A stretch of 34,606 nucleotides of DNA, taken from positions 1-34,606 of the IMG/VR virus record IMGVR_UViG_3300017779_000056; one strand, written 5' to 3'. A model generated the notes under the pieces. The model was not told the DNA's origin. It did not search any database and saw only the letters and a list, made by a program, of their open reading frames with translations. Made by a program: the position numbers and the translations under genes. The DNA comes from a virus. Below are positions 10,059 through 33,144 of the stretch, in pieces. The stretch's first letter is position 1; each line of letters starts with the position of its first letter.

Positions 10059-10427
10059 ATGAGTAAAATATTGATTGGAATTATTGTTGTTATGGGTTTA
10101 GGAAGTTACATTCTTTGGAATCAAAATGCAGAACTTAATAAGCTCAACCTAGCGTATGAGGTTAAGTTCGAAGAACAAGAGAGAACGATTCAAGCTATTC
10201 AGCAAAATCTAGAATCTACCGCAAAAAATTTAAAAAATTTACAAGTACAAAATCAACAATACGAAGCAGAAATGACTGAGTATTTGGATATATTTAGAAG
10301 ACATAATATTGCTAAGTTGGCGAGTGCAAAACCAGGCATGATTGAAAAACGTGCTAATGATAGAACAAAGGAGGCATTTGATGCAATTGAAGCAGATAGT
10401 AATCGCATTTCTAGCCTTAACGATTAG
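10059..10427 (+). CDS. Probable inner-membrane spanin (Rz-like)
   Basis: The protein has 122 residues. Residues 3-20 form one N-terminal membrane segment (ILIGIIVVMGLGSYILW), followed by a long Gln/Glu/Lys-rich coiled coil (about 30-85) reaching into the periplasm. This is the layout of i-spanins, which fuse inner and outer membranes at lysis. The support is positional: the next gene, overlapping it out of frame by 47 bases, encodes a lipoprotein, the classical Rz/Rz1 nesting. Sequence identity to known spanins cannot be judged here. Confidence 0.65.
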   Translation: MSKILIGIIVVMGLGSYILWNQNAELNKLNLAYEVKFEEQERTIQAIQQNLESTAKNLKNLQVQNQQYEAEMTEYLDIFRRHNIAKLASAKPGMIEKRANDRTKEAFDAIEADSNRISSLND

Positions 10428-10875
10428 TGGCTGTTCCATACTTGGACCAAGAGAAGTCGAAGTAAAAACAGTTCCAATAAAGCTTGATATAGTACAACCA
10501 GTTTTACCAAGGCCCTTGGATTTAAAAGAGCCAAAATGGTATGTCGTTTCTGATACAAAGATAATTGAAAATTGTCTTAAAGACCCAGAAACGAAAAAGC
10601 CTAATTGTAAATTAGGTAGAGAAGATTTATATCCAGAGGGATATACATATCTAGATAGGTTTATCGATGATATTAAAAAGAAGCATGGTGGCGATATAGT
10701 ATTCGTAGCTATGACGGTAGCGGATTATGAGAATATGTCTTATAATACGCAAGAGATAAAAAGATACATAAACCAGTTAGGCGAAGTGATAGTTTATTAT
10801 AGGAATGTAACAATAAATGATAAAGATGCTGGAGCAATTGAAATTAAAGTGGAGAAAAAAGATGGCAACGAGTAG
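10381..10875 (+). CDS. Probable outer-membrane lipoprotein spanin (Rz1-like)
   Basis: The start is set at the ATG at 10381, preceded by AGGAGG at 10369-10374; a longer frame from 10342 lacks this site. It encodes 164 residues. Residues 1-17 form a lipoprotein signal ending in the lipobox I-S-G-C, so the mature protein would begin at the Cys. A Pro-containing linker (VLPRPLDLKEPKW) and a globular C-terminal domain (YLDRFIDDIKKKHGG onward) follow, longer than classical Rz1. It partners the upstream i-spanin. An unrelated lipoprotein cannot be excluded because of the extra domain. Confidence 0.65.
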   Translation: MQLKQIVIAFLALTISGCSILGPREVEVKTVPIKLDIVQPVLPRPLDLKEPKWYVVSDTKIIENCLKDPETKKPNCKLGREDLYPEGYTYLDRFIDDIKKKHGGDIVFVAMTVADYENMSYNTQEIKRYINQLGEVIVYYRNVTINDKDAGAIEIKVEKKDGNE

Positions 10876-25769: not shown

Positions 25770-26234
25770 ATGTTTTTTAGAAAAAATGAAGATATTAACA
25801 TTGAACAACTAAAAGAAACTTTAAAAGTAGATGAAGGAGTCGTATATGAAATTTATAACGACCACCTTGGTTATCCTACATTCGGTATCGGCCATCTCGT
25901 CTTGGACGGAGACCCAGAACATGGGGAGCCGGTGGGCACTTCAGTCTCAGAGGATAGAGTTGATGAGTGCTTTGAAAAAGACGTAGAAACAGTAATTGAA
26001 GATTGTAAAAAATTACATGATGGTTGGGATGGTTATCCTGAAGAGGTAAAACAAATCATTGCCAACATGATGTTTAATATGGGACTTACAAGATTAAGTA
26101 AGTTTAAGAAACACAATGCAGCTTTAACCTGTGGAGACTGGAAAGAAGCAGCCGTCGAAGGTAGAGATTCAAGATGGTACAAGCAAGTAACAAATCGTGC
26201 AGAACGATTAATGACAAGACTCGAAGCAGTTTAG
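25770..26234 (+). CDS. Endolysin, T4-type lysozyme (GH24)
   Basis: The protein has 154 residues; T4 lysozyme has 164. E22, D31 and T37 reproduce exactly the E11/D20/T26 spacing of the T4 catalytic triad, within V-D-E-G, Y-N-D-H-L-G-Y and P-T-F-G-I-G-H. The C-terminal R-D-S-R-W-Y-K-Q and N-R-A-E-R-L segments match GH24. It cleaves peptidoglycan glycan strands at lysis. ACGGAG precedes the ATG. Membrane proteins that could serve as holin follow downstream. Confidence 0.93.
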   Translation: MFFRKNEDINIEQLKETLKVDEGVVYEIYNDHLGYPTFGIGHLVLDGDPEHGEPVGTSVSEDRVDECFEKDVETVIEDCKKLHDGWDGYPEEVKQIIANMMFNMGLTRLSKFKKHNAALTCGDWKEAAVEGRDSRWYKQVTNRAERLMTRLEAV

Positions 26235-26362: not shown

Positions 26363-26370
26363 TATAAATA
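26363..26370 (+). promoter_or_regulatory. T4-type late promoter in front of the curli module
   Basis: An exact TATAAATA, seven bases before the ATG at 26378. It would transcribe the two membrane proteins, csgF, csgG, curlin 1 and the FecR gene as one late operon. Confidence 0.7.
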
Positions 26371-26377
26371 AACACGT

Positions 26378-26674
26378 ATGGATGAAGTGTTTAGACTAAT
26401 TGCCGATGTCGGCGCTCCGATAGCAGGTTCAATAGTCATGGGATTTTTTATTTTTATCGTTATTAAACAGATAATGGAAGGTATTGTCGACCAAATAAAA
26501 ACCCTAACTATTTTTTGCAAATCTCTAGAGAATAGAGCAAGGACAATGAGCAATGAAATTATAAAAATAGATTTATTAGTATCAAGTGCTTTAGAATTAA
26601 GACCTGATACTGATAGAATAGCTCGTGCCGAGAATTTTATCGAGGATGGAAAGCTAGATGTTAGGAGAGACTAA
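26378..26674 (+). CDS. Small membrane protein, possible holin, first of a pair
   Basis: The protein has 98 residues. D10-V-G-A-P14 leads into a membrane span at about 13-30 (PIAGSIVMGFFIFIVIKQI), then a charged amphipathic helix and coiled coil with I-K-I-D-L-L. The next gene encodes the same design, so the two may be paralogues working together. The position directly after the endolysin would fit a holin/regulator pair; the position before csgF could also mean a link to fibre export. Start is at about +3 of the late promoter. Confidence 0.6.
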   Translation: MDEVFRLIADVGAPIAGSIVMGFFIFIVIKQIMEGIVDQIKTLTIFCKSLENRARTMSNEIIKIDLLVSSALELRPDTDRIARAENFIEDGKLDVRRD

Positions 26675-26940
26675 TGGATGTAGGACAATTAGTTTCAGAT
26701 TACGGCTTTCCGGTAGTCATGGCCGTAGGTCTTGGCTATTTCATATACTACATTTGGTGGTTTATAGGAGAGCATATTGAACCACAATTACAGGAAATGC
26801 ATATCGCATTAATTCGTGTAATTGACCAGACTCGTATGCTCGACCAAGATTTAATTAGATTAAAAGAAAAGGTAAATGTAGTATTAGAATATAAGGCACA
26901 GCAAAAGTTAAAAGCAGAGGGAAAAGATGAAGAAGAATAA
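26674..26940 (+). CDS. Small membrane protein, possible holin, second of a pair
   Basis: The protein has 88 residues. D9-Y-G-F-P13 is followed by a span at about 12-31 (VVMAVGLGYFIYYIWWFI), then an amphipathic helix (LIRVIDQTRMLDQDLIRLKE) and a charged C-terminus. Small proteins with this helix occur in marine T4-like phages. It overlaps the upstream gene by one base and csgF by 14 bases. Confidence 0.6.
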   Translation: MDVGQLVSDYGFPVVMAVGLGYFIYYIWWFIGEHIEPQLQEMHIALIRVIDQTRMLDQDLIRLKEKVNVVLEYKAQQKLKAEGKDEEE

Positions 26941-27442
26941 ATGTAAAGATAACCTAGAAATTGCCAGTTTGGTAGCTATTTTTATGGTTAGTATTATAGC
27001 AGTTTCTCCAAATGTACAAGCAGATGTAGTTCACAAGTTTAAAAATCCATCATTTAGTGGAGTAGGAACTGGAGCACATTATTTAACAGTGGAAAACCAA
27101 GAGCATGCTCGTAAGAAGGCAATAAAAGATGCAATGGAAGCTGCACGAAAAGCAGCCGAAAGAGATGCAGAAAATACTACGATGGCAAAGTTTATAAGAA
27201 ACTTAGAGAGTAGAATATATGCTCAGATGTCTAAACAGTTAGTTGAATCGATGTTTAGTAACGATGGTTCAGTTAGATTTGGTTCATTTGTTTTAGAAGG
27301 CAATACAGTTACTTATGAAGTTATTACAAATGAAGATGGTACAGAGTATATTAAAATGACCATTGTTGATGAGAATGGGTCATCTACTACAATTGAAATA
27401 CCAATTGGTACAGGCAATTTTGCACAAGATTCTGATGGATAA
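26927..27442 (+). CDS. csgF: Curli assembly protein CsgF homologue
   Basis: The protein has 171 residues. A signal peptide (about 1-32, ending V-Q-A) is followed by V-H-K-F-K-N-P-S-F-S-G, equivalent to the conserved F-R-N-P-N-F-G-G of E. coli CsgF that inserts into the CsgG pore. A helical middle (about 55-105) is longer than in E. coli; the C-terminal strands (VRFGSFVLEGNTVTYEVIT, then T-I-E-I-P) match the CsgF end. CsgF links curlin nucleation to the CsgG channel at the cell surface. It lies four bases before csgG. Confidence 0.88.
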   Translation: MKKNKCKDNLEIASLVAIFMVSIIAVSPNVQADVVHKFKNPSFSGVGTGAHYLTVENQEHARKKAIKDAMEAARKAAERDAENTTMAKFIRNLESRIYAQMSKQLVESMFSNDGSVRFGSFVLEGNTVTYEVITNEDGTEYIKMTIVDENGSSTTIEIPIGTGNFAQDSDG

Positions 27443-27445
27443 ATT

Positions 27446-28402
27446 ATGGAAGCAGCTTTAGCATTATTATTAGTATTAGGATTTTTAAATGAGTCAGCAA
27501 CTCCTGTTTGGTCTGATAAACCTGAGGAATGCAAAGAAATTACATTTGATGACCCTTATATTGGTCCTAACACAGTATCAAGATTAGAAAAAACATTAAG
27601 ACATTCTTATATTTGTGTTGAAGAAGCTGAAGCAATTAGATTACCTTCATACATCGAGTTATTAGATTTACCTCCAGCAAAAGATAGACCTGTAGTTGCT
27701 GTATATGGATTTAAAGATTTAACAGGTCAAAGAAAATCAAGAGAAGGTATAGCAGACTTCTCAACAGCAGTTTCACAAGGTGGAACTGAGTTATTAATAG
27801 ATGCTCTCAAAACAGCAGGAGATGGAAGCTGGTTTAGAGTAGTAGAAAGACAAGGCATTGATAATCTGGTAAGAGAAAGACAGATTATCAGGAGTGCCAG
27901 AAACGATTTCGCAGGCCCGGAAGGCGCGAAAGCATTGAATCCACTTCTATTCGCTGGTATGATAATGGAAGGTGGAATAATTGGTTATGATACTAATGTA
28001 CAAACTGGTGGTCGAGGCGCACGATTATTAGGTATAGGCAAAAGTAAGCGATATCAACAAGATGTCGTCACTGTTTCGGTTAGAGCAGTTTCTGTTCTGA
28101 CTGGTGAAGTATTATTGAATGTCCAAGCTAAGAAGACGATTCTTAGTTACGGTGGAAGTGGTGATATTTTTCGATTCGTCGATAATAGTACCACTCTAGT
28201 AGAATATGAGGACGGTGTGGGAAATAATGAGTCCGTGACTTACGCGACACGAACAGCTATTGAGGCTGCCGTGTTGGAACTAATATACCAAGGGCATGAT
28301 AGAGGCCTTTGGGTTATAGAGGATGGACATCGTCACCCCCACCAAGTCGGTGGTAAAAACGATAAACATCCTATAAAAGAGGAAAATAACGAAAATGAAT
28401 AA
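27446..28402 (+). CDS. csgG: Curli secretion channel CsgG homologue
   Basis: The protein has 318 residues; E. coli CsgG has 277. Matches are strong across A-V-Y-G-F-K-D-L-T-G-Q, F-S-T-A-V-S-Q-G, V-V-E-R-Q-G-I-D-N-L, R-Q-I-I-R-S-A, G-G-I-I-G-Y-D-T-N, K-K-T-I-L-S-Y, F-R-F-V-D and D-R-G-L-W. It forms the outer-membrane nonameric pore. The N-terminus is odd: a hydrophobic start (residues 2-13) but no lipobox Cys, and about 50 extra residues with C29 and C57 before the CsgG core. In the constriction loop F-S-T-A-V keeps the Phe, but the preceding Asn is Asp. It overlaps curlin 1 by eight bases. Confidence 0.93.
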   Translation: MEAALALLLVLGFLNESATPVWSDKPEECKEITFDDPYIGPNTVSRLEKTLRHSYICVEEAEAIRLPSYIELLDLPPAKDRPVVAVYGFKDLTGQRKSREGIADFSTAVSQGGTELLIDALKTAGDGSWFRVVERQGIDNLVRERQIIRSARNDFAGPEGAKALNPLLFAGMIMEGGIIGYDTNVQTGGRGARLLGIGKSKRYQQDVVTVSVRAVSVLTGEVLLNVQAKKTILSYGGSGDIFRFVDNSTTLVEYEDGVGNNESVTYATRTAIEAAVLELIYQGHDRGLWVIEDGHRHPHQVGGKNDKHPIKEENNENE

Positions 28403-29135
28403 ACTATATAGTATAGTCCTAGCTGGGCTATTAGTGTCGACAGGATTCGTTTTTGCACAAGCCACTGATGATAATGAAATCAAAATCACACAATCTGGTG
28501 ACACACTAGAATTGTACATCGACCAAATTGGTTTCGGTAACAAAATTGGAGGAGACGACTTTTCAAGTGGTTCTACTGCAATGAGTATTATCGGTTCAAG
28601 TTTAGAGTTTGATTTAGATTTTGCTGGTAACCAAAACATTTTATTTGGTCCTGTTAAAGCAGATAGTTCAACCTATAAGCTTGATTTTACAGGTGATTCA
28701 AATGAAATTGATTGGAATATCGGATATAGCGGTAGCGCAGATGATTCTGACTATAATTTTGATGTAACTGGAGACAGTAACACATTTGATATAGACCAGG
28801 GTTATGCAGCGAGTGCAGAAAGATTAGATGCCGATTTAATTTTAATAGGTAATTCAAACGTATTTGATATAGATTTTGAATCTGACGATAACGTTTGGAA
28901 TTTTGAAGTTACTGGAGACAGTAATAATATAAACACATTACAGAATGATGGTTCACAAAACCTAGAGTTTACTTTAGTAGGCGATTCTGCAGATGTTGAT
29001 ATTAATCAGATAAGTGGTACTTGTGCAGGACAGACAACTGGATGTGCAACACCAAATGCTAATATCGTATTAGACGTAACTTCAGACAATGCAACTATTA
29101 CCATTACTCAAAAAGACAGCGGTAACGACAGCTAG
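28395..29135 (+). CDS. Curlin-like fibre subunit 1
   Basis: The protein has 246 residues. A signal peptide (about 1-22, …V-F-A-Q-A) is followed by D-D-N-E-I-K-I-T-Q-S-G and Y-I-D-Q-I-G-F-G-N-K, then loosely repeated units of about 20-30 residues built around T-G-D-S-N-x-(I/F)-D-I-D. This is curlin-type logic (Gly-Asn turns, alternating polar strands, Gln/Asp ladders) with more Asp than CsgA. A C-A-G-Q-T-T-G-C pair sits near the end. It is the expected cargo of the CsgG/CsgF genes directly upstream. The 3' end overlaps the FecR signal-peptide codons by 47 bases. Confidence 0.75.
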   Translation: MNKLYSIVLAGLLVSTGFVFAQATDDNEIKITQSGDTLELYIDQIGFGNKIGGDDFSSGSTAMSIIGSSLEFDLDFAGNQNILFGPVKADSSTYKLDFTGDSNEIDWNIGYSGSADDSDYNFDVTGDSNTFDIDQGYAASAERLDADLILIGNSNVFDIDFESDDNVWNFEVTGDSNNINTLQNDGSQNLEFTLVGDSADVDINQISGTCAGQTTGCATPNANIVLDVTSDNATITITQKDSGNDS

Positions 29136-30189
29136 TCTATTAATCATCGGTGGGACTAGTTTAAGTGCTAGTCCCATTGGAGATGTCAGGGAATCCACTG
29201 GCGTCACCGCAATTCTACGCGATAAAGAACAAATTCAAACTACAGAAATAGAATTATATGACCAGGCTGAAACAGCCAAAGGTCGTATGTTAATTGAGTT
29301 TTTAGATAAAGCTGAATTACAATTAAAAGAACATTCAAAAGTTTTTATAGACGAAATATATTACGACCCTAACCCATCATTATCTAAAATGTCAATGAGA
29401 ATGGTTAGTGGAACTGCACGATTTGCTTCAGGTAAATTGGGTTTAGTTAATAATGCGAATATAGCAATATCAACACCTACAGCTACAATAGCAGTTAGAG
29501 GAACAGATTTTACAACAACAATCGATGAGCTTGGACGTTCATTGGTGATATTACTTCCAGATGATAAAGGTAATCCATCGGGAGTTATAGAAGTTTCAAA
29601 TGCTTCAGGAACAGTTGTACTAGATGAAGCTTATGCTGCAACAATGGTTTATACTGTAGACACACCACCAACTTCAACTACTATCATTAATGGTATTACA
29701 CCAGCTTTAATTGATAATATGTTTATTGTAAATCCACCGCAAGAAGTAAAAGATAGAATACAAGAAGAATTACAAGATGAACAAAATGAAGACCAAGGTT
29801 TATTAGATATCGACTTTTTAGAATTTACAGAATTAGAAGAAGACGCATTGGAAGAAGATGAGTTAAAAGAGTTCTCAGAATTAGACGTTGATGAATTAGA
29901 TGTAGAGTTTTTATTAGACTTTTTATCAATCGTAGATTCATCTGACCTATTTGATACATTAGGAGAGTTTGATATTAAAGGTGCAATGAGAGGATTAAAC
30001 GATGAATCTCAATATAATGTATTTTTAAGAGATGGCGATTTAGTATTATATCGTAATGTAAATGGAGCAATAGAATTAACATTTGCAGCAGGTGGTTCAT
30101 TTACATTAGAAACAATAACACCAGGTTGGGAAGGAATAATAACAGGTAATGATGGAGAAGACATCATAGTAAGGATTAACCAAAATTAA
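29089..30189 (+). CDS. Secreted FecR-domain protein
   Basis: The product has 366 residues from the ATG at 29089 within the end of the curlin gene. Residues 1-28 are a signal peptide (…S-L-S-A-S). The FecR domain (about 35-150) is marked by E-S-T-G-V-T-A-I-L-R, L-K-E-H-S-K-V, M-V-S-G-T-A-R-F-A-S-G-K and S-T-P-T-A-T-I-A-V-R-G-T-D-F. A Glu/Asp-rich stretch (about 230-300) and a small beta domain follow. There is no membrane span or N-terminal anti-sigma helix, so this is the free secreted form rather than classical FecR. I recall such proteins occurring next to CHASE2 cyclases in bacteria, as here. Confidence 0.85.
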   Translation: MQLLPLLKKTAVTTASLLIIGGTSLSASPIGDVRESTGVTAILRDKEQIQTTEIELYDQAETAKGRMLIEFLDKAELQLKEHSKVFIDEIYYDPNPSLSKMSMRMVSGTARFASGKLGLVNNANIAISTPTATIAVRGTDFTTTIDELGRSLVILLPDDKGNPSGVIEVSNASGTVVLDEAYAATMVYTVDTPPTSTTIINGITPALIDNMFIVNPPQEVKDRIQEELQDEQNEDQGLLDIDFLEFTELEEDALEEDELKEFSELDVDELDVEFLLDFLSIVDSSDLFDTLGEFDIKGAMRGLNDESQYNVFLRDGDLVLYRNVNGAIELTFAAGGSFTLETITPGWEGIITGNDGEDIIVRINQN

Positions 30190-30190
30190 T

Positions 30191-30198
30191 TATAAATA
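30191..30198 (+). promoter_or_regulatory. T4-type late promoter in front of curlin 2 and the cyclase
   Basis: An exact TATAAATA one base after the FecR stop, five bases before the ATG at 30204. It gives the second half of the module its own late start. Confidence 0.7.
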
Positions 30199-30203
30199 GT
30201 ATT

Positions 30204-30260
30204 ATGAAGAAATTTAAAAAAATATTTTACAAATACTGGATTAGGCCCTGGGTAGCATAA
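30204..30260 (+). CDS. Basic micropeptide
   Basis: The product has 18 residues (MKKFKKIFYKYWIRPWVA) starting at +1 of the late promoter, with its stop overlapping the curlin 2 start (TAATG). It begins like the capsid-targeting peptides (M-K-K-F) but has no acidic site. It may serve as a leader cistron that brings ribosomes to the next gene. Confidence 0.4.
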   Translation: MKKFKKIFYKYWIRPWVA

Positions 30261-30958
30261 TGAAAGATATAGCCTTTATATCTCTAATGTTATTATTACC
30301 ATTTGTTTGTTTTGCTGATGATAATCAAATATCTCTAGAACAATCTGGTAATAATTTTGAATTAGAAATAGAACAAGTAGGATATAATAATACTATAAAA
30401 ATGTTAGATTCTGGTTCATATATTAATAATGCCCCAAATCTAGATGTTCACATAGTACAATATAATTTTACAAGTGCTGAGAATATAATTGCATTTGACG
30501 AAATGAGTGGTTCTGGAAATACACTCAAGCTTGGCCAAGGAATTGCTTGGTTATCGGATGGTTCATATACCTATGATAATATTGAAGGCGGTGGTCATTA
30601 TATGGAATTAGATTTATATGGAGATGACAATTCTTTAACATGGCATCAAACAAATGCTGGGTCAACTGATGGACACAACTTTGACTTTCATCTAGCTGGT
30701 AATGATAATATTATATCAGGTAGACAACAAGGGCAAGGTTCTAAGGAACTAAATCTAACAATCTATAATTCTGACAATGATGTTACTCTCAGACAGAAAG
30801 GTACATGGGCAACTCATACTGCAAATATAACTCTAGATGGATTATATGGAACAGATTTGACATTAAGACAATTAGGAAGTACAACACAAACATATAACTT
30901 AGCAGTTGATTGTGTTACAGTAGGCGGTTGTTCTGTGACAGTAGAACAGGGTCAGTAA
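30260..30958 (+). CDS. Curlin-like fibre subunit 2
   Basis: The protein has 232 residues. Signal peptide 1-19 (…F-V-C-F-A). The mature start D-D-N-Q-I-S-L-E-Q-S-G and E-I-E-Q-V-G-Y-N-N-T-I parallels curlin 1, and the end (V-G-G-C-S-V-T-V-E-Q-G) again has strand-Gln-Gly. The middle has irregular strand-turn units with L-G-Q-G, R-Q-Q-G-Q-G, R-Q-K-G and R-Q-L-G, closer to the Q-x-G spacing of CsgA/CsgB than curlin 1 is. By analogy one could be the major subunit and the other the nucleator; which is which cannot be told from sequence. Confidence 0.72.
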   Translation: MKDIAFISLMLLLPFVCFADDNQISLEQSGNNFELEIEQVGYNNTIKMLDSGSYINNAPNLDVHIVQYNFTSAENIIAFDEMSGSGNTLKLGQGIAWLSDGSYTYDNIEGGGHYMELDLYGDDNSLTWHQTNAGSTDGHNFDFHLAGNDNIISGRQQGQGSKELNLTIYNSDNDVTLRQKGTWATHTANITLDGLYGTDLTLRQLGSTTQTYNLAVDCVTVGGCSVTVEQGQ

Positions 30959-31038
30959 TGAATTCCTATCAAAGATTTCTTCGTCTTAAATACGGCTGGG
31001 GTATTCCTAAGGGTTTATACATAGATTTATACGTATGA
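30958..31038 (+). CDS. Basic micropeptide
   Basis: The product has 26 residues (YQRFLRLKYGWGIPKGLY core). Its ATG overlaps the curlin 2 stop and its TGA overlaps the cyclase ATG, so it is precisely fitted between them. Probably translated through coupling; function unknown. Confidence 0.45.
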   Translation: MNSYQRFLRLKYGWGIPKGLYIDLYV

Positions 31039-32867
31039 AATATATTACTTCAATATGGTCAACCTTTGCATTAGCTTCATTATTAATTTTAATGAGAATT
31101 ATAGACCCATCATTATTAGAACAAACACGATTAAATACATTCGACGCTTTAATCAAAACACTTCCAGAAGAAAAATCACAAGAAATAGTTTTACTTAATA
31201 TAGGCGAGGATTCCTTAGCTGAATTAGGACAATTCCCTTGGCCCCGACATCACTATGCTCAAATGATAGCTGATTTAAGAAATAAAAATGCAGGTATGAT
31301 TGGGTTTACTATTATGTTTCCAGAAGCAGATAGGTTTGGTGGAGATGAAGTATTTGCCAGTTGGGTAAAAGACAATGGAATTATTCTAACACAAACAGCT
31401 GATGAATATGGTAGAAGCGAATCTGCACCTTATGTAGGATATGCAACCTTTGGAACATCAGACCCTTTAGATTTCATTTACCAATATAAAGGATTAGTTA
31501 CTAATATACCTGAGATAGAAGCAGGTGCATGGGGACATGGATTATCTAACGGCGCGCCAGAAGTTGATAGTATTACAAGAAGAATACCACTTATATCTAA
31601 TGTCAATGGACAATTATATCCATCATTTGCTTTAGAAACAACTCGTGTTTTAAACGAAAAGCAATCTTATACTATTAAATCAAATGAAAGCGGAATTGAA
31701 AGTATCGTATTAAGACCATTTAATATCTCTACAGATAGTGATGGTTCTATTTGGTTAAAATGGAATACGAAATTTGAAGAAGTAGAATATGTAAATAACT
31801 TAAATGATTATGAAGATTTTAAAGGTAGGACAGTTATTGTTGGAGTAACGGCCAGAGGTTTATCTCAACAAGTTGCTACTCCTGGCGGATTGAAATATCC
31901 TCATCAGTTACAAGCTTCAGCGTTACAGACGATTCTGTCTGATAAGCCGATTTCTCGGCCTCAATACGCAACTCCTTTAGAAATTCTTGTAGGAACTCTT
32001 CTTGTGTTTGTTCTGATTCTTGTGGTATATCGTTTACCGATTTGGGTTTCTTTGCTAACCTTTCTGGTTCTCTGCGGAGGGACAATCTTTTCTGTACTTT
32101 ATATTTGGAATAAATCTTACATACTCCTCGACCTTACGTTCCATCTAATATTATATATACTTTCCTTCACTTCAGCGGGCTTTAATAATTTCTATAAACA
32201 ATTTGTATTACGACAACAAATTAAGAAACAATTTGAAACTTATTTAGACCCAAGGCAAGTGATGTTATTACAGAAAGACCCATCGTTATTACGATTAGGT
32301 GGAGAGAGAAAAGAGATGTCGTTTCTGTTTATGGACATCGTAGGGTTTACTCCAATATCAGAACATTATAAAAATAACGATGACCCAGAGGGGTTAGTAG
32401 AAATTATAAATAACTATTTAGACACCATGACAAAAATAATATTAAAGAATGGTGGAACAGTTGACAAATATATGGGTGATTGTATAATGGCTTTTTGGAA
32501 TGCTCCATTGCCATCTAATAATCATGCGGATATGGCTGTAAAAACAGCATATGAAATAACGGAAGCAGCAGATGTACTTATTGCAGAATTGGAAGAAAAA
32601 GGTTTACCTCGTATTGACGTTGGTATTGGTATCAACACCGGCGACTGCATCGTTGGAAACATGGGGTCAGAATCTCGATTTGACTATTCCGTTATTGGAG
32701 ACGCCGTCAACTTGGCAGCTCGACTCGAAGGCCAAACAAGAAATTACGATGGGGTTCGAGTGCTGTTATCACAGTTCACTGCTGAAGAGTGTAAAGGACG
32801 AAGCTTCACTGAAGTCGATACAATTACAGTCAAAGGTAAATCTGAACAGATTACAATTTACACATAG
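31035..32867 (+). CDS. CHASE2-domain adenylate cyclase (class III)
   Basis: The protein has 610 residues. Topology: N-terminal span (about 6-23), large periplasmic CHASE2 sensor (about 25-290; L-N-I-G-E-D-S-L, F-P-W-P-R-H, R-R-I-P-L-I), three spans (about 310-385), then a cytoplasmic cyclase domain. Catalytic residues appear complete: metal Asp D434 (F-M-D-I-V-G-F) and D482 (Y-M-G-D-C), K478 for adenine recognition, and N559/R563 in A-V-N-L-A-A-R-L. The Ser in Y-S-V-I-G occupies the position that is Thr or Asp in adenylate cyclases. It should make cAMP in response to a periplasmic signal. It is cotranscribed with curlin 2 from a late promoter. Confidence 0.93.
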   Translation: MKYITSIWSTFALASLLILMRIIDPSLLEQTRLNTFDALIKTLPEEKSQEIVLLNIGEDSLAELGQFPWPRHHYAQMIADLRNKNAGMIGFTIMFPEADRFGGDEVFASWVKDNGIILTQTADEYGRSESAPYVGYATFGTSDPLDFIYQYKGLVTNIPEIEAGAWGHGLSNGAPEVDSITRRIPLISNVNGQLYPSFALETTRVLNEKQSYTIKSNESGIESIVLRPFNISTDSDGSIWLKWNTKFEEVEYVNNLNDYEDFKGRTVIVGVTARGLSQQVATPGGLKYPHQLQASALQTILSDKPISRPQYATPLEILVGTLLVFVLILVVYRLPIWVSLLTFLVLCGGTIFSVLYIWNKSYILLDLTFHLILYILSFTSAGFNNFYKQFVLRQQIKKQFETYLDPRQVMLLQKDPSLLRLGGERKEMSFLFMDIVGFTPISEHYKNNDDPEGLVEIINNYLDTMTKIILKNGGTVDKYMGDCIMAFWNAPLPSNNHADMAVKTAYEITEAADVLIAELEEKGLPRIDVGIGINTGDCIVGNMGSESRFDYSVIGDAVNLAARLEGQTRNYDGVRVLLSQFTAEECKGRSFTEVDTITVKGKSEQITIYT

Positions 32868-33144
32868 AGATTATAAAAAAGACGTATACTATTTTTGGGC
32901 CATTAATGCACTCGATGTATGGACTACTAATCGAGGATTAAAGCATCCAAATATATACGAACTAAATCCTATTGTAGGAAAAGACCCTCATTTAGATAGA
33001 TTAATACTTTTTAAATTAATATGGGGCAGTCTTATACTGCATACTCATGAACCAGAACATATAATCATACCTAATACATGGGTCACAATTGCCGTTGCTA
33101 ATAACCTAAATGTGATGAATAACCTAGATATTATATCCTTATAA
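32572..33144 (+). CDS. Secreted or membrane protein whose N-terminal half overlaps the cyclase gene
   Basis: The frame has 190 residues, the first 296 bases overlapping the cyclase gene in another frame. Residues 1-27 form a convincing signal peptide (K-K-K-V-Y-L-V-L-T-L-V-L-V, then A-T-A), with GGAAG before the ATG. C-C-Y-H-S-S lies near residue 64. The non-overlapping C-terminus (YYFWAINALDVWTTNRGLKH, then E-L-N-P-I-V-G, and a hydrophobic stretch) resembles DUF5658-like small membrane proteins. No other start codon is available after the cyclase stop except far inside the conserved block, so translation must begin within the cyclase gene. Exact start uncertain. Confidence 0.55.
   Translation: MYLLQNWKKKVYLVLTLVLVSTPATASLETWGQNLDLTIPLLETPSTWQLDSKAKQEITMGFECCYHSSLLKSVKDEASLKSIQLQSKVNLNRLQFTHRDYKKDVYYFWAINALDVWTTNRGLKHPNIYELNPIVGKDPHLDRLILFKLIWGSLILHTHEPEHIIIPNTWVTIAVANNLNVMNNLDIISL

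Follow-up and report, generated by a model that had tools for sequence, protein, structure and literature searches.

A curli cassette carried by phages was described in 2022 for pelagiphages (PMC9599517), and aggregation ('sibling capture') had been put forward earlier still (PMC7029224). On the bacterial side, a Burkholderia operon joins a FecR/LysM protein to a CHASE2 kinase, and its disruption abolishes biofilm (PMC5192318). Here we analyse IMG/VR record IMGVR_UViG_3300017779_000056, a T4-like marine phage whose 34,606 nt (positions 1 to 34,606, together called the window below) may be a fragment. At 26378–32867, eight genes run head to tail on a single strand (+) with short gaps or overlaps between them, in the order membrane protein A, membrane protein B, CsgF, CsgG, curlin 1, FecR, curlin 2 and CHASE2-cyclase. 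This cassette is a member of the published pelagiphage type VIII secretion system (T8SS) cassette, and its content is not new. What is new here is the curlin-type last strand that ends the phage FecR proteins. On balance we lean towards reading the locus as a T8SS (curli) cassette of marine T4-like phages that would supply a late surface amyloid together with a fibre-coupled envelope sensor.

The cassette and its genes

A preliminary description of this DNA, made from the letters alone, had named CsgF, CsgG, two curlin-like proteins, a FecR protein and a CHASE2-cyclase, and domain matches bear this out: all are present, contiguous and on one strand, with CsgG, CsgF and the curlins forming a complete set of export and subunit genes. 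CsgF (26927–27442; PF10614, 5e-16; phrog_35372, 1.5e-38) has a signal peptide and the motif FKNPSFSG, the CsgG-insertion motif of E. coli CsgF. CsgG (27446–28402), the outer-membrane secretion channel, matches PF03783 at 8e-51 and, by profile, the E. coli CsgG structures at E = 5e-64. The two curlin-like subunits, each with a signal peptide, lie at 28395–29135 (PF07012, 1e-3, just under the cut-off) and 30260–30958 (PF07012, 0.018), the second matching the first by profile at E = 2e-22. Between them stands the secreted FecR-domain protein (29089–30189; PF04773, 6e-9; phrog_37870, 7e-62), and the last gene encodes a CHASE2 class III adenylyl/guanylyl cyclase of the inner membrane (31035–32867; PF05226, 3e-39; PF00211, 2e-19; phrog_35576, 9e-198). 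CsgE, CsgC and CsgD were not found in the cassette.

The span first proposed, 26378–33144, does hold these genes, but its first two, left unnamed at the time, are a paralogous membrane pair. An open reading frame (ORF) at 32572–33144, then taken as a further member, lies in a different frame from the cyclase, with an overlap of about 98 codons; its real start is probably later than called, and we do not count it.

Conservation of the cassette among viruses

From viral contigs, a CsgG profile recovered 307 relatives, of which the 80 best were kept for linkage counts; the denominators include only loci on a contig long enough to tell. FecR was linked to csgG in 58/58 viral loci and the CHASE2 cyclase in 37/39; 63/66 had a curlin immediately 3′ of csgG, and 68/71 had the membrane pair 5′ of the cassette. 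The csgG–fecR–CHASE2 linkage, for which a survey had been suggested at the outset, is therefore kept across phages rather than absent from all relatives. An assembly chimera is excluded by this near-universal linkage and by a 7.2 kb match to a contig under another sample accession (L004), which differs from the window at 22 positions over 7184 bases. HTVC008M and Melnitz have a cassette gene order identical to that of the window, with 45–52% protein identity between HTVC008M and the window over CsgG and the cyclase.

Two other phage contigs (L062, L063) contain a reduced cassette of CsgF, a 60-amino-acid gene, CsgG, one curlin and FecR, and lack the membrane pair, the second curlin and the cyclase. 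Curli cassettes or CsgG of phage type also occur under the titles Sphingobacteriales, Rhodobacteraceae, Synechococcus, Flavobacteria, Pelagibacter and Pirellulales. Ten such bacteria-titled loci (L084–L089, L091–L093, L096), and L119 on account of its tree position, were excluded as phage DNA that has probably been mis-binned into genome collections.

A curlin-like tail on the phage FecR protein

In the AlphaFold model of FecR, a FecR domain (amino acids 31–187, with a predicted local distance difference test score, pLDDT, of about 90) is joined by an acidic, disordered linker to a distinct beta domain (amino acids 289–364). The FecR domain has a structural match in the cell-surface signalling domain of PupR (6ovk, E = 5.5e-4, probability 1.0). 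At the C-terminus the pattern [IV]x[IV]xQx(0-3) is present in 52/52 distinct complete phage FecR proteins, which are related by descent and hence are not 52 independent events, versus 1/978 other ORFs. The motif recurs from HTVC008M to podophage-type loci, and it is kept in loci whose fecR has no overlap with the gene that follows. A profile of the tail matched the rungs of curlin 2 at E = 9e-4, the best of 40 column-shuffled controls reaching 0.065. We take the tail for a small curlin-like module with the potential to dock on a fibre, and this lends support to a physical coupling of the sensor to the fibre.

We also considered FecR as an anti-sigma iron citrate regulator and rejected this, as the signal peptide is followed by the FecR domain with no anti-sigma N-terminus, the cassette has no FecI or FecA, and the surface-signalling domain is the only part that matches.

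Export proteins and curlins

At its start (within 27446–27540) the window CsgG has no lipobox cysteine (MEAALALLLVLGFLNESATPVW), a residue present in nearly all other phage CsgG proteins; the CsgG of the near-copy L004 is identical and likewise lacks it. Both curlins lack the N-terminal targeting stretch of CsgA. The expectation that the two proteins are beta-solenoids was examined on curlin 1, whose predicted beta-rich repeat fold agrees with it. Its AlphaFold model, built from 31 aligned sequences (pLDDT 82, predicted template modelling score 0.76), has serial beta strands, and its weak Foldseek neighbours are mostly beta-solenoids or beta-helices, one CsgA (8c50) among them; we take the beta-solenoid as a prediction.

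The CHASE2 cyclase

With both a CHASE2 domain and the catalytic residues, the last protein of the cassette belongs to the CHASE2 class III nucleotidyl cyclases. D434, K478, D482, N559 and R563 are intact in the window; D434, D482, K478 and R563 are invariant among 32 cyclases, and N559 is replaced by serine in Melnitz and L096 only. By the roles known from class III cyclases, D434 and D482 would bind metal, K478 would be the adenine lysine, and N559 and R563 would act in the transition state. P. aeruginosa CyaB (3r5g) is among the best relatives of solved structure. Adenylyl cyclase is the likelier activity. The cyclases of Melnitz (L003) and L096 are of another catalytic subtype, with the specificity residue D in place of S/T and the transition-state Asn changed to Ser, and their CHASE2 half is conserved.

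Late expression

A T4-type late promoter, TATAAATA, lies at 26363–26370 (+), 7 nt ahead of the first cassette ATG. Of 76 viral loci, 39 have an exact copy in the 60 nt that precede the first cassette gene, compared with 0–5 for each internal gene. The position of TATAAATA before the first gene, and not the number of its copies, is our reason for regarding the cassette as apparently one late unit; the genes look as if they are run together late, as the preliminary description had supposed. That description placed all of the genes behind exact promoters of this kind. There are two sites only, although the first precedes the entire cassette. The second (30191–30198, +) stands ahead of an 18-codon ORF (30204) and curlin 2, and is mostly private to the window, being kept in 3/59 relatives. 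The ORF between this promoter and curlin 2 (30204–30257) encodes a basic peptide, MKKFKKIFYKYWIRPWVA.

Exact copies of TATAAATA are found 5–7 nt before an ATG at several window positions. Their raw count was discarded as evidence for late promoters, as the 11 copies against 7.2 expected are not above chance (9/100 shuffles were as high). A promoter and terminator consensus scan was uninformative.

The membrane pair, lysis genes and genome context

Membrane protein A (98 amino acids; 26378–26674, +; phrog_18771, 6e-24) has one N-terminal hydrophobic helix and a coiled coil, and its paralogue B (88 amino acids; 26674–26940, +) matches the same family at 2e-23. Upstream of csgF in the window, HTVC008M and Melnitz alike, the genes encode membrane proteins of about 88–115 amino acids with coiled coils, in none of which was a kinase domain or conserved histidine found. 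According to PMC9599517, one or two histidine kinases always precede the T8SS genes. For the window a histidine kinase in this place is ruled out, the two proteins being membrane proteins of 88 and 98 amino acids with neither feature, and the membrane-pair genes are probably those that the paper called kinases. The label 'kinase' on these genes, like 'iron regulator' on FecR, would misdirect experiments. The pair accompanies phage cassettes; of the 68 bacterial csg loci that were checked, none has it. Protein B has a weak holin match (phrog_4898, 0.018), and the pair shows weak YvrJ similarity by profile.

A T4-type lysozyme gene (25770–26234, +; phrog_13211, 1e-21; phrog_7 endolysin, 6e-15) neighbours the cassette without belonging to it. 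Endolysin matches occur in the fetched flanks of about half of the viral loci, and lysozyme or spanins lie near the cassette in many relatives, downstream in podophage-type loci and upstream in window-type phages. This proximity of lysis genes fits late timing and would also suit an explanation through lysis. In four podophage-type loci a spanin pair and endolysin lie directly 3′ of the cassette (L069, 5361–6953; L070, 9077–10921; L073, 5772–7352; L077, 7189–8325). The window has a possible spanin pair of its own at 10059–10875, far away from its lysozyme gene.

The remaining gene content of the window is T4-like and includes a ribonucleotide reductase, an RNase H/flap endonuclease and an exonuclease besides the T4-type lysozyme. 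The best matches of the RNase H-like protein are to HTVC008M, Melnitz and cyanophages, at about 45%. No tRNAs were found in the window, and no structured RNAs at Rfam thresholds.

Bacterial counterparts and origin

In 68 bacterial loci with CsgG, neither FecR nor CHASE2 was found nearby. Hyphomonas sp. TMED17 is the exception; in it csgF, csgG, a curlin, fecR and a CHASE2 cyclase gene follow one another amid chromosomal genes on a 705 kb contig (L090, 9363–15386); this operon is also an exception to a published claim, and the five-gene core thus exists on a bacterial chromosome as well. In an order-level sample around TMED17, csgF was present in 34/299 genomes and CHASE2 stood beside it in TMED17 only. 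TMED17 groups with phage L068 in the CsgG, FecR and cyclase trees (support 98–99, 96 and 95, respectively) on long branches, and monophyly of the phage CsgG proteins is not rejected (approximately unbiased test, p = 0.059). The tail glutamine motif is missing from its FecR. TMED17 as a bacterial donor is not established, given its nesting with phage L068 on long branches; the trees favour a phage-to-bacterium transfer, though without establishing it.

That FecR and CHASE2 are neighbours in bacteria had been mentioned in the preliminary description, and the pairing does recur: in at least eight further genomes of Alphaproteobacteria the two genes are no more than about 5 kb apart. In two of these genomes, from the SAR11 family (L196, 6049–10919; L197, 5969–11987), genes for a CHASE2 protein, a TPR/outer-membrane-like protein and a FecR protein are consecutive. 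The first triad adjoins apparent two-partner secretion genes and the second large secreted proteins.

A proposed surface fibre with a sensor, and alternative explanations

In the reading we prefer, CsgG would form the outer-membrane pore with CsgF seated in it, and both curlins would be exported through it, adopt a beta-solenoid fold and build a fibre on the surface of the infected cell. By its curlin-like tail the secreted FecR protein would dock on the fibre or its subunits, or be templated by them, while its FecR domain would touch the cyclase at the CHASE2 domain in the periplasm; cyclase output may thereby report fibre assembly or envelope state as the lytic cycle finishes. Fibre formation, both contacts of FecR and the biological use are what we infer from the genes. 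The use might be superinfection exclusion, aggregation or delivery to neighbouring cells, as the preliminary description suggested, or else the timing of lysis. Several observations weigh against this reading. Infected cells have so far shown no fibre, and clumping in culture was not seen by the authors of the Melnitz study (PMC9004378). CsgE is absent, and the window copy of CsgG, with its lipobox Cys missing, may be impaired. Both curlins score below the PF07012 cut-off (1e-3 and 0.018), a Foldseek search with curlin 1 gave no significant structural match, and the profile match of the FecR tail to curlin has a probability of only 23%. Finally, PF00027 (cyclic-nucleotide binding) was not found in HTVC008M, Melnitz or one SAR11 genome, and is present in only 9/147 SAR11-family genomes (138/147 are without it). 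Because no CRP-type receptor was found in the two cultured phages or in most of the SAR11 family, cyclic AMP as an ordinary signal, invoked in the preliminary description, is not supported, and it is here that a simple signalling account fails. A more specific coupling of amyloid to signalling, in which the fibre, or curlin that has not been exported, captures the FecR tail and this state is relayed to the CHASE2 cyclase, we put forward tentatively and as rather doubtful. If true, it would amount to a fibre-status checkpoint within lytic infection, in hosts mostly without a known cyclic-nucleotide receptor. Curli cassettes are present across marine phages, and the FecR tail offers a testable link from the fibre genes to the sensor genes.

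The cassette might instead help to time or enable lysis, with CsgG and CsgF as a gated outer-membrane pore, the membrane pair as holin-like proteins and the curlins as plugs or cargo. A lysis role was put forward for the Melnitz CsgGF pore (PMC9004378), and it agrees with the cassettes that run into spanins and endolysin (L069, L070, L073, L077), the T4 lysozyme just upstream in window-type myophages, the endolysin matches flanking about half of the viral loci, and the weak holin similarity of protein B and YvrJ similarity of the pair. No lysozyme, however, is annotated next to the cassette in HTVC008M or Melnitz, a separate holin-like gene is apparent by eye in L066 and L077, and FecR, the cyclase and the joint retention of two curlins are left unexplained, so that we regard it as unlikely. 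The conserved catalytic residues of the cyclase, and the CHASE2–FecR triads beside other surface proteins in some SAR11-family and other Alphaproteobacteria, would suit a different role, in which the cyclase and FecR act on the host through a cyclic nucleotide, in envelope stress or host takeover, and the fibre is secondary; given the scarcity of CRP-type receptors and the retention of curli genes and FecR without a cyclase in L062 and L063, this seems to us quite improbable. Still less credit goes to an uptake pore, an idea raised in PMC7029224 and PMC9599517, by which an ungated CsgG admits larger nutrients to the infected cell and the other genes are accessory. There is indeed no CsgE gate, yet CsgF and the curlins, needless for a bare pore, are kept in nearly all copies. 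The loss of the lipobox from the window CsgG could also mark decaying cargo, functionless in this phage; against eight intact frames, a CsgG identical in L004 with 22 differences in 7184 bases, and strong conservation elsewhere, we find this hardly credible.

Comparison with known systems

The E. coli csgBAC–csgDEFG system shares with the window CsgG and CsgF homologues and, by matches below the PF07012 cut-off, curlin repeats, whereas the window has no CsgE, CsgC or CsgD, has longer and irregular curlins, and adds FecR and a cyclase. The Burkholderia BiofilmReg operon (PMC5192318) resembles the window in placing a secreted FecR-domain protein beside a CHASE2 sensor and in its link to biofilm, and is a precedent for the reading preferred here, but its output is a histidine kinase with a response regulator and it includes no curli genes. 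Similarly, the alphaproteobacterial triads (L196, L197 and L199, from the SAR11 family and others) have CHASE2 and a secreted FecR near surface-protein genes, as the window does; their middle protein, however, is a TPR/outer-membrane protein and not CsgG, and the CHASE2 protein of L196 and L197 has no match to the cyclase model. TMED17 shares the csgF–csgG–curlin–fecR–CHASE2 cyclase operon, and differs in its place on a bacterial chromosome, the lack of a membrane pair, a single curlin and a FecR without the glutamine tail motif. Closest of all is the pelagiphage T8SS cassette, which in PMC9599517 has the order CsgF-CsgG-CsgA/B-FecR-CsgA/B-AC (AC, adenylyl cyclase) with one or two small genes ahead, the same as in the window. 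Set against that account, the window differs in a CsgG without a lipobox and in upstream genes that encode membrane proteins and not kinases, and the curlin-like FecR tail, not described for the pelagiphage cassette in the passages of that paper compared here, is the feature that the present comparison adds.

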